From an uncultured Bacteroidales bacterium (GTDB lineage: Bacteria; Bacteroidota; Bacteroidia; Bacteroidales; Paludibacteraceae): a stretch of DNA of 35,094 nt. The notes below the pieces were generated by a model. It was not told where the DNA came from and made no database searches. It was given only the letters and a program-made list of their open reading frames with translations. Position 1 is the stretch's first letter. Each line of letters begins with the position of its first letter. The position numbers and the translations under genes are program-made. Positions 6,235-8,082 of the stretch are shown one piece after another. The stretch covers positions 1 to 35,094 of the forward strand of contig CALUML010000010.1 of assembly GCA_944321745.1 (NCBI GenBank), in the 5' to 3' direction.

Positions 6235-7602
6235 TCATCCTATTATCCGCTCCAGCCCTTCTATGTTCTGGCGGATTTCCTCGTCGGGCAACTGGTAGTT
6301 CTGCAAGTCGCCGGAGAGGTAGCGGTCATAGGCCGACATGTCGATGAGGCCGTGGCCGGAGAGGTTGAACAGGATGACCTTCGGTGTGCCCTCCTCCTTC
6401 GCCTTCAGGGCCTCGGCGACGGTGGCGGCAATGGCGTGTGCCGACTCGGGGGCGGGCACGATGCCCTCTGTGCGAGCGAAGAGCACGCCTGCCTGGAACG
6501 AGTCGAGCTGCTTGATGTCCACCGCCTCCATGTAGCCGTCCTTCATCAGCTGGCTCACGATGGTGCCTGCCCCGTGGTAGCGCAGCCCGCCGGCGTGGAT
6601 ATGCGCAGGAGCGAACGTGTGGCCCAGCGTGAACATGGGTAGCAGGGGCGTGTAACCCGCCTCGTCACCGAAGTCGTATTGGAACACACCGCGTGTGAGC
6701 TTGGGGCATGAGGCCGGTTCGGCCGCCACGAAACGCGTGGCCCGTCCTTCCAGTATCGTATGGCGCATGAAGGGGAACGATATGCCACTGAAGTTCGACC
6801 CTCCCCCGAAGCAGCCAATCACCACATCGGGATATTCGCCCGCCATCTCCATCTGCCGCTCGGCTTCCAGCCCGATAATGGTCTGGTGCAAGGCCACGTG
6901 GTTCATCACGCTGCCAAGGGTATATTTACAATGCGGCACCGTCTGCGCCAGCTCGATGGCCTCGGAGATGGCCGTGCCCAGGCTGCCCTGGTACGTGGGG
7001 TTTTCGGTCAATATCTTGCGCCCCGCCTTGGTGGACATGCTGGGCGAGGCCACCACCTGCGCCCCCCACGTCTGCATGAGCGAGCGGCGGTAAGGCTTCT
7101 GCTCGTAGCTCACCTTCACCATGTACACGGCCAGCTCCAGGCCGAACACCCGCGCGGCATAAGCCAATGCCGTGCCCCACTGGCCCGCCCCGGTCTCGGT
7201 GGTGATGTTGGTCAGCCCCTCGCGTTTGCAGTAATAGGCCTGCGCCAGAGCGGAGTTGAGCTTGTGCGACCCCACGGGGCTCACACTCTCGTTCTTGAAG
7301 TAGATGTGCGCCGGTGTGTCGAGTGCCCGTTCCAGCCCGTAAGCCCGCACCAGGGGGGTGGAGCGGTACGCCTTGTACTGCTCGCGCACCTCGTCCGGGA
7401 TGTCAATCCAGCGGTCGGTCGTGTTCATCTCCTGGCGCGAAGCCTCTTCCGAGAATATGGGGAAGAGGTCCTCCGCCCGCAAAGGCTGCTTGGTGGCGGG
7501 ATGGAGCATCGGCATGGGCTTTACCGGCATATCGGCCACGATGTTGTACCACAGGCGGGGGATGTCCCGCTCTTCGAGGAAAAATCTTTTCTGTCGTTCC
7601 AT
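6235..7602 (-). CDS. trpB2: TrpB2-type tryptophan synthase beta chain (PLP enzyme)
   Basis: This 455-residue cytoplasmic PLP enzyme converts indole and serine to tryptophan. The length and the N-terminal extension before the fold (IPRLWYNIVADMP...) are typical of the TrpB2 class rather than the roughly 400-residue TrpB1. The PLP-binding lysine is Lys114 in GSHKLNSA. The ETGAGQWG loop (about 135-143), PHCKYTLGSVMNH and the phosphate-binding GGGSNFSG (about 270) are all visible. There is no trpA or other trp gene beside it. TrpB2 is thought to act as an indole-salvage enzyme or as partner of a divergent TrpA. Regulation is unusually clear: upstream lie a promoter, a Trp-codon leader peptide and an intrinsic terminator, which supports a true role in tryptophan supply. 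Confidence 0.95.
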   Translation of the reverse strand: MERQKRFFLEERDIPRLWYNIVADMPVKPMPMLHPATKQPLRAEDLFPIFSEEASRQEMNTTDRWIDIPDEVREQYKAYRSTPLVRAYGLERALDTPAHIYFKNESVSPVGSHKLNSALAQAYYCKREGLTNITTETGAGQWGTALAYAARVFGLELAVYMVKVSYEQKPYRRSLMQTWGAQVVASPSMSTKAGRKILTENPTYQGSLGTAISEAIELAQTVPHCKYTLGSVMNHVALHQTIIGLEAERQMEMAGEYPDVVIGCFGGGSNFSGISFPFMRHTILEGRATRFVAAEPASCPKLTRGVFQYDFGDEAGYTPLLPMFTLGHTFAPAHIHAGGLRYHGAGTIVSQLMKDGYMEAVDIKQLDSFQAGVLFARTEGIVPAPESAHAIAATVAEALKAKEEGTPKVILFNLSGHGLIDMSAYDRYLSGDLQNYQLPDEEIRQNIEGLERIIG

Positions 7603-7679
7603 ACTTGTAAGAATTATGAATAGTTAGTAAATGAAATGCGTTGAATGTTCCACCCGCTTGCCCGTGTGTTTCGGCGGGA

Positions 7680-7723
7680 TAAAAACAAAGCGGCCTGTCG
7701 TTTTGGTAAACAACAGGCCGCTT
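7680..7723 (-). terminator. Leader terminator of the trpB2 attenuator
   Basis: A perfect 11-bp stem (AAGCGGCCTGT at 7688-7698 with its complement at 7713-7723) has a 14-nt loop that can form four further pairs (GTTT/AAAC). On the minus strand it is followed at once by TTTGTTTTTA. This intrinsic terminator lies between the leader peptide and the trpB2 start, about 78 nt upstream of the ATG. It would stop transcription unless its first arm is sequestered. CGGCC in that arm (7716-7720) can pair with GGCUG in the leader (7760-7764). Confidence 0.88.
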
Positions 7724-7746
7724 GCTGATGATGCTGCTATCACAGT

Positions 7747-7818
7747 GCTATACACACGCCAGCCGTGCCCAATCGTTTACCACCATCGAGCATTGCCAAC
7801 GCCAAGAATATGTATAGC
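7747..7818 (-). promoter_or_regulatory. Leader RNA stem 1:2 of the trpB2 attenuator
   Basis: On the minus strand GCUAUACAUAU (7808-7818) pairs along 11 positions, including two G-U pairs, with GUGUGUAUAGC (7747-7757). The first arm lies in codons 5-8 of the leader peptide, just before the first Trp codons. The second arm overlaps the leader stop codon. A ribosome stalled at Trp codons 10 and 12 would cover arm 1, and one that finishes at the stop would cover arm 2. This is the geometry expected for ribosome-mediated attenuation. The pairing is seen; the regulation is inferred. Confidence 0.7.
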
Positions 7819-7831
7819 TGAAATGTGCCAT
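7748..7831 (-). CDS. Trp leader peptide (27 aa)
   Basis: A 27-codon ORF begins about 18 nt downstream of a promoter -7 element and ends in TAG. It encodes Trp at residues 10, 12 and 21 (WRW core), plus Tyr at 6 and 8 and Phe at 4. Three Trp in 27 residues, placed between a promoter and a terminator upstream of a tryptophan synthase gene, is strong evidence for a regulatory leader peptide. I recall a comparative-genomics RNA class in Bacteroidota called Bacteroid-trp that fits this description; membership was not tested. The peptide is not expected to have a function of its own. Confidence 0.85.
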   Translation of the reverse strand: MAHFSYTYSWRWQCSMVVNDWARLACV

Positions 7832-7848
7832 GTTTTGTGATTCTGTTG

Positions 7849-7879
7849 CAAAGGTAGGGATATTTTTTAATAAACAAAA
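7849..7879 (-). promoter_or_regulatory. Promoter of the trpB2 leader
   Basis: TTTTG (7875-7879, minus strand) and TACCTTTG (7849-7856) are separated by 18 nt, a close match to the Bacteroidota consensus. The leader peptide ATG follows the -7 element by 17 nt, so the transcript would have a very short 5' end before the peptide. Confidence 0.8.
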
Positions 7880-7958: not shown

Positions 7959-8034
7959 TGCTCACGATTGGGGAAACATCTGCCCGGAAAAGGAAAAACA
8001 TCTGCTCACAATTGGGAAAACATTTGCCGGGAAA
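7959..8034. repeat. Two-copy imperfect direct repeat, 44-nt period
   Basis: The 32-nt segments 7959-7990 and 8003-8034 align with only a few substitutions (both start TGCTCAC and contain ATTGGG followed by AAACAT). They lie between the trpB2 promoter and the 3' end of the upstream pseudogene. No coding or binding function is visible. Confidence 0.65.
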
Positions 8035-8037
8035 CAG

Positions 8038-8082
8038 AAAAAATGAAAGAACGGCTTGCCGCACCGCATGGCGACAAGCCGT
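8038..8082 (-). terminator. Probable terminator after the broken paralogue
   Basis: ACGGCTTG (8051-8058) pairs with CAAGCCGT (8075-8082). On the minus strand the stem is followed by TCTTTCATTTTTTC, a T-rich tail. It lies 25 nt past the stop at 8107. Confidence 0.6.

Follow-up and report, generated by a model that had tools for sequence, protein, structure and literature searches.

Introduction

In Escherichia coli, the trp operon is controlled by attenuation, through a leader peptide and competing antiterminator and terminator structures. TRAP, TrpR and T-box systems control trp genes in other organisms. Attenuation in E. coli and TRAP control are both also described in PMC6504234. In Bacteroidetes, the Bacteroid-trp RNA (RF01692, Weinberg et al. 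2010, PMC2864571) has been described as a Trp-rich leader ORF followed by a terminator, placed before tryptophan genes. Other candidate attenuators precede tryptophan synthase genes. One of them has been proposed for trpRBA of Chlamydia trachomatis (Merino and Yanofsky 2005, cited in PMC6504234), for which PMC6504234 states that robust experimental evidence is lacking. In Corynebacterium diphtheriae, candidates have been reported for trpB1EDGC and for trpB2A (PMC1262725).

The role of stand-alone TrpB2 proteins has been debated, and a serine-deaminase function was once proposed (PMC1854888). The same paper describes Pyrococcus horikoshii as keeping trpB2 and lacking all other trp genes, and calls the selective function of this lone trpB2 unidentified. 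TrpB2 enzymes are reported to depend on O-phosphoserine (Busch et al. 2014, cited in PMC11917138).

Here we analyze a leader region upstream of a lone trpB2 in an uncultured bacterium of the Paludibacteraceae. As in the E. coli trp attenuator (Trp_leader, RF00513), it has close Trp codons in a leader peptide and competing antiterminator and terminator structures. Unlike the E. coli leader, it would control one stand-alone gene and not an operon. RF01692 loci are found at the head of trp biosynthetic genes, whereas this leader precedes trpB2, which is followed by a rhomboid protease gene. C. trachomatis shares with it a predicted Trp-dependent attenuation and, probably, Trp auxotrophy and the use of a tryptophan synthase for indole salvage, but belongs to another phylum and has trpBA in an operon with the TrpR repressor, according to PMC6504234. 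In C. diphtheriae, too, a Trp leader attenuator is predicted for an additional trpB copy, which need not belong to the TrpB2 family; this copy is paired with trpA and found alongside trpB1EDGC. P. horikoshii is the case with a similarly isolated trpB2, but it is an archaeon, and the parts of PMC1854888 consulted describe no attenuator. The mechanism is of a known kind; what is new is the target (a lone trpB2), the antiterminator and the setting, in which the pathway is missing. We found no description of an attenuator on a stand-alone trpB2 in the parts consulted of the open-licence literature on Bacteroid-trp, attenuation in Bacteroidetes, TrpB2, Trp attenuators and Paludibacter.

Results

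The leader region and its gene

The window is the whole stretch of DNA analyzed, 35,094 nucleotides of contig C10 from an assembly of 2.66 Mb (207 contigs, 89% complete). The gene at 7602-6235 is a trpB2 and clearly not a canonical trpB. In a profile search its product scores 697 bits with NF009057 (cut-off 366) and 592 bits with TIGR01415 (cut-off 519), while the canonical model TIGR00263 gives 146 bits, far under its cut-off of 392. The next gene downstream codes for a rhomboid protease, so trpB2 stands alone. Among named genomes, the trpB2 genes closest to it are found in Bacteroidales. The features are as follows:

6235-7602, minus strand: trpB2, a stand-alone TrpB-like PLP enzyme of 455 amino acids (curated TrpB2 profile models).
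7849-7878, minus strand: Bacteroidetes-type promoter, TTTG-N18-TACCTTTG (sequence; the -7 element recurs in relatives).
7748-7831, minus strand: leader peptide ORF, 27 codons plus stop, MAHFSYTYSWRWQCSMVVNDWARLACV, with Trp at codons 10, 12 and 21 (ORF reading; Trp-cluster leaders in relatives).
7808-7818, minus strand: 5' strand of stem 1, GCUAUACAUAU, in the codons before the Trp codons, a possible protector of the antiterminator strand (folding).
7747-7757, minus strand: 3' strand of stem 1, GUGUGUAUAGC, overlapping the leader stop codon (folding).
7772-7781, minus strand: antiterminator 5' strand, GGUAAACGAU, in leader codons 17-20, immediately in front of the ribosome when it stalls at Trp 10 or 12 (covariation, nascent folds).
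7705-7714, minus strand: antiterminator 3' strand, GUUGUUUACC, in the 5' arm and loop of the terminator (covariation, nascent folds).
7688-7723, minus strand: intrinsic terminator hairpin of 16 bp with a 4-nt loop, arms 7723-7708 and 7703-7688 (folding, covariation).
7681-7687, minus strand: T-rich terminator tail, TGTTTTT (sequence).

The original prediction, made from the letters of this region, placed a promoter, a leader ORF, a stem and a terminator with a T-run on the minus strand within 7680-7879. All of them are present, as is the 27-codon leader with its three Trp codons. Its perfect 11-bp terminator is the beginning of a longer hairpin: the first 11 bp are indeed Watson-Crick pairs, but the stem continues to 16 bp, with one G.U among them. 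Stem 1, between the pre-Trp codons and the leader stop, has the 11 bp that had been proposed, two of them G.U pairs. The fold of region 7676-7848 has an energy of -68.2 kcal/mol (z -5.47), and none of 200 shuffled sequences is equally stable. From the positions of promoter and terminator, we estimate that termination would give a separate leader RNA of about 160 nt. Upstream of the promoter, at 7974-8039, there are three imperfect direct repeats of 22 nt.

Recurrence in other genomes

Loci with trpB2 were collected from named genomes (80 loci) and from genomes of the family, where 177 of 300 contain trpB2. They gave 190 upstream regions, reduced to 173 distinct ones by removing 14 duplicates and three short regions (L127, L146 and L078). 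L011 and family genome G054 have identical upstream regions. A short ORF starting with ATG and containing a Trp cluster is found in 52 of the 173, against 4.1 per 173 in shuffled sequences. Both the leader and a hairpin with a T-run are present in 45, against 0.5 expected (5 of 1730 dinucleotide shuffles); these upstream regions are related sequences, not independent ones. The three relatives found in the same genus all carry WRW or WHW leaders: MTRFGNTYFWHWQGSIVVNDCGS, MNNFCNTYFWRWLGSVVINDWV and MNLLNNTFSWRWQNLVVVSNEV.

In 20 of the 21 loci listed, the -7 promoter element TAnnTTTG is found at a distance of 52-74 nt before the first Trp codon. L091 has none, and L083 has a second one at 86. 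The -33 TTTG is present in ten of these 21 loci. The leader peptides vary greatly outside the Trp cluster. In an alignment of 20 loci, the conserved parts are the Trp codons, the antiterminator strand and the terminator. The proposal of a Trp leader-peptide attenuator before a stand-alone trpB2 is supported and extends to relatives, which keep the Trp codons and the terminator.

The leader is not universal in the family: It is found in 38 of the 109 genomes examined (the window's own genome, 29 loci and 80 stretches, less L127, which has 10 nt upstream). Spurious matches in G036, G004 and G023 were omitted from this count, and leaders with one Trp codon were counted as absent. Four leaders of the latter kind, L096, L100, L110 and L090 (genomes G001, G034, G129 and G177), keep an antiterminator-like segment and the terminator, which may reflect decay or retuning of the switch. 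L045, from Petrimonas, resembles them. L087 and L088 (G171 and G079) have no leader ORF and show a terminator-like remnant, CAGCCTG ... CAGGCTG, before trpB2.

Antiterminator and terminator

The 20 aligned loci were chosen after the antiterminator had been seen by eye, and L095 (a WRW leader, p 0.27) was left out. In this alignment the pairing GGUAAACGAU:GUUGUUUACC is formed in 90.9% of cells, against 36-53% when one strand is slid by 1-3 columns; given this choice of loci, the percentage is not an independent measure. Six of 13 pairs are changed on both sides, a number reached by one of 500 shuffles. The 19 doubly changed cells and the covariation score were each reached by none. The count of further pair types is not above shuffles (reached by 85 of 500). 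Loci that are related to one another may score above shuffles, and these had been selected after the fact; the compensating changes and the register control therefore carry more weight than the percentage paired. One paired change is found inside the genus: L084 has GAUAAAC with GUUUAUC. The terminator is paired in 88.7% of cells in the same 20 loci, with 8 of 15 pairs changed on both sides and a covariation score reached by none of 500 shuffles; further pair types are again not above shuffles (190 of 500).

Two other pairings fared differently. A shorter antiterminator, GGCUG:CGGCC, had been proposed at first; it is paired in 62% of cells and shows no covariation above shuffles (score reached by 459 of 500), and we have rejected it. 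Stem 1 is paired in 50% of cells over the 20 loci. Four of five measures were reached by at least 31 of 500 shuffles and the fifth, the covariation score, by 13. In a duplex test covering 14 of the 20 loci, one had p <= 0.05, and the window had p 0.063. We have therefore dropped it as a conserved element. The expectation that the Trp codons and both stems would be conserved in aligned orthologues holds for the Trp codons and the terminator and fails for stem 1, which, judging from fold and alignment, is real in the window and not general.

A wider test of the antiterminator covered 48 of 63 loci with a Trp-cluster ORF. We dropped L003, L005, L023, L046, L057, L147 and L163 as spurious, and L097, L105, L117, L121, L123, L135, L138 and L140 as duplicates or near-duplicates. 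A terminator was found in 47 of the 48 (not in L187), and 19 of these 47 have an antiterminator with p <= 0.05. The combined p of 1e-15 is overstated, because the rows are related and the automatic terminator is wrong for at least L099. Other groups of leaders have pairings with the same role and different sequence, among them AUGGAGG:CCUCCAU, CGGAGG:CCUCCG, AGUGGAG:CUCCACU and GGUGGAU:AUCCACC. The signal is weaker outside the WRW group, with p <= 0.05 in 6 of 25 loci, three of which are near-identical rows.

We also folded the nascent RNA from the edge of the ribosome up to the terminator loop in eight of the 20 loci, assuming a ribosome footprint of 13 nt counted from the first base of the A-site codon. 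With the ribosome at the first or second Trp codon, the antiterminator comes out as the optimal fold in 15 of 16 cases; only L083, stalled at its first Trp codon, does not form it. When the ribosome is left out, the antiterminator strand is hidden in other structures in six of the eight loci, including the window, while L008 and L098 form the antiterminator even then. In the folds made, the complete RNA favours the terminator energetically, so antitermination must be kinetic. The decision in E. coli trp attenuation is generally held to be kinetic as well.

Relation to Bacteroid-trp and other RNA families

The original prediction considered that the leader probably belongs to Bacteroid-trp. As a direct assignment this does not stand, since RF01692 has no match to the window at E up to 10. 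Its cut-off (49 bits) is passed in one of 17 trpB2-leader loci, L054 from Dysgonomonas, with 49.2 bits. None of 18 further trpB2-leader loci is matched at E up to 1. RF00513 finds nothing in the window region at E up to 10; in one relative, L136, it gives a weak match of 27.1 bits, against a cut-off of 41. A search of the window region with Rfam leader families and T-box (E up to 10) gave a single match of 12.8 bits, on the other strand and to an unrelated sRNA family, which we attribute to chance.

Across the order, RF01692 matched 37 of 393 genomes, and 21 of these exceed its cut-off. Its 30 best loci, which include these 21, all have a Trp-rich leader ORF. Downstream of them, trpB1 or trpE motifs are found in 28, and there is no motif call in two, one of them at a contig end. 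A trpB2 motif is found in none of the 30. Profiles identify TrpB over the cut-off in L202 and L197, and TrpE under the cut-off in the truncated stretch of L220; the short TrpE piece of L202 has no profile match.

The original assignment does hold in the form of kinship. A model built from the 20 trpB2 leaders only, R1, finds 27 of the 30 best RF01692 loci on the right strand with E < 0.001, taking E-values as rough. Of the remaining three, one has an E of 0.007, and L204 and L208 are missed. Such recovery of loci placed on the trp operon argues that trpB2 leaders and operon Bacteroid-trp leaders are diverged relatives.

R1 has matches at E up to 0.01 in 97 of 300 family genomes. Of 81 listed places whose E is at most 1e-4, 27 are at trpB2, 19 are 4.2-5.1 kb upstream of trpC on the same strand, by inference the head of the trp operon, and three are opposite a trpB2 leader. 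The other 32 are outside these classes, which were drawn with part of the trpB2 and trpC coordinates. We fetched 17 of them: three lie before trpB1, two before trpB2, five before leuA, and seven are without a gene call. Gene names come from profiles for L260, L263, L266, L255 and L264, and from sequence likeness for the others. Several genomes have two leaders each, one for the operon and one for trpB2: G189, G215, G177 and G034. In the last two, the trpB2 leader has a single Trp codon.

The five matches upstream of leuA, the gene for 2-isopropylmalate synthase, are L254, L256, L258, L260 and L261; L260 was identified by profile and the other four by the same N-terminal sequence. Their leader peptides are rich in Leu and Ile, for example MNNFYTNIILLGIIILLHNKTK. 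From their sequence, they look like a leucine attenuator with a similar terminator. A weak full-length R1 match (28 bits) upstream of lepA, L264 (G101:C43), has no Trp leader and is probably due to chance. The leader model also matches the antisense strand in G058, G101, G093 and the window itself (7679-7726, plus strand), most simply because the terminator is a near-palindrome.

Tryptophan pathway

The window's own genome has no match to TrpF, TrpA or TrpC (controls 14 of 14 for each). All four genomes of the genus lack TrpC, including one with a completeness of 99%. TrpE is absent in all 11 genomes tested among the 17 which have the leader and no TrpC, including the four of the genus (controls 14 of 14). 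None of the same 11 has a canonical TrpB over the cut-off (control 13 of 14); matches of this model under the cut-off correspond to trpB2 itself and to one weak extra place. The rest of the trp pathway thus appears to be lost in the genus, as judged from TrpE, TrpC and canonical TrpB across the genus and from TrpA and TrpF in the window's own genome.

No association is found between the leader and the loss of the operon: 17 of 43 genomes without TrpC have the leader, and 21 of 66 with TrpC (odds ratio 1.4, p 0.42, n=109). For example, genus g2 has ten genomes with both TrpC and the leader, while the 16 genomes examined in g22 have neither. Within g2, decay has left some leaders with a single Trp codon or with no more than a terminator relic.

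Discussion

The leader has a Trp-rich upstream ORF, an intrinsic terminator before the gene and a computed antiterminator which excludes the terminator. We consider it, with a probability of about 0.88, to be a classical ribosome-mediated transcription attenuator which senses charged tRNA-Trp and controls trpB2. At low Trp, the ribosome would stall at Trp codon 10 or 12. Codons 17-20 would then be left free, and their antiterminator strand could pair with its partner in the 5' arm and loop of the emerging terminator. The terminator would form too late, and RNA polymerase would continue into trpB2. With ample Trp, the ribosome would clear the Trp codons, and the antiterminator strand would be either covered or folded into stem 1 and an inner hairpin. 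The 16-bp terminator would form, and transcription would halt ahead of trpB2. Trp 21 is situated where the antiterminator strand extends downstream, and a ribosome halted at this codon should promote termination. The sequences show the parts, their return in relatives and the covariation in both pairings, while leader translation, stalling and read-through governed by Trp are inferred.

The leader might instead be a decaying relic, a constitutive terminator with a short ORF left from a former attenuator, which no longer responds to Trp in this genus. The four genomes with one Trp codon and the two with a terminator-like remnant could be examples of such decay in the family, and the lack of association with TrpC would also fit. 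Nevertheless, in the window and its three relatives in the genus the antiterminator and a strong terminator are both kept, with two or three Trp codons in the leader, and the paired change in L084 took place inside the genus, all of which make a relic unlikely here. Somewhat less likely still is a role of the terminated leader in trans, either as a small RNA itself or via a functional peptide, with control of trpB2 secondary or absent. There is a reported precedent in the trp leader of Sinorhizobium meliloti (PMC7298713), and the leader is estimated to give a discrete transcript. The peptides, however, differ strongly beyond the Trp cluster, and conservation is concentrated in these codons and in the antiterminator strand and terminator.

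A Trp-binding protein or direct sensing of tRNA (TRAP-like, TrpR or T-box), with an incidental short ORF, seems very improbable. Although trp genes are controlled by such systems elsewhere, the Rfam search of the region (E up to 10) revealed no T-box or other leader family, and ORF Trp codons kept at a constant distance from a covarying antiterminator would not be expected from sensing by a protein or directly by tRNA.

Since the trp pathway appears to be otherwise lost in this genus, the regulated reaction is most likely the formation of Trp from indole and serine (or phosphoserine). The presence of a conserved Trp attenuator immediately before the gene is regulatory evidence that TrpB2 produces Trp, probably from scavenged indole. 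We lean, by a small margin over even odds, towards a wider scheme, in which de novo Trp synthesis has disappeared from this genus and several related ones. The only step left to make Trp would be a lone TrpB2, controlled by an attenuator of the trp operon type that was kept and has diverged, and this tRNA-Trp-sensing switch would be devoted to the scavenging of indole from the community. If this is true, such control would by itself demonstrate that stand-alone TrpB2 works in Trp synthesis, as opposed to, for example, serine deamination.

In summary, we regard the attenuator as genuine and recurring; its mechanism is well supported by the sequences compared, and a salvage role is a reasonable reading. 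Trp attenuation in Bacteroidetes is extended from the operon to a second gene, with an antiterminator which can be tested. The finding also suggests an indole-scavenging life style for these bacteria, in a setting where Trp auxotrophy and indole exchange matter.
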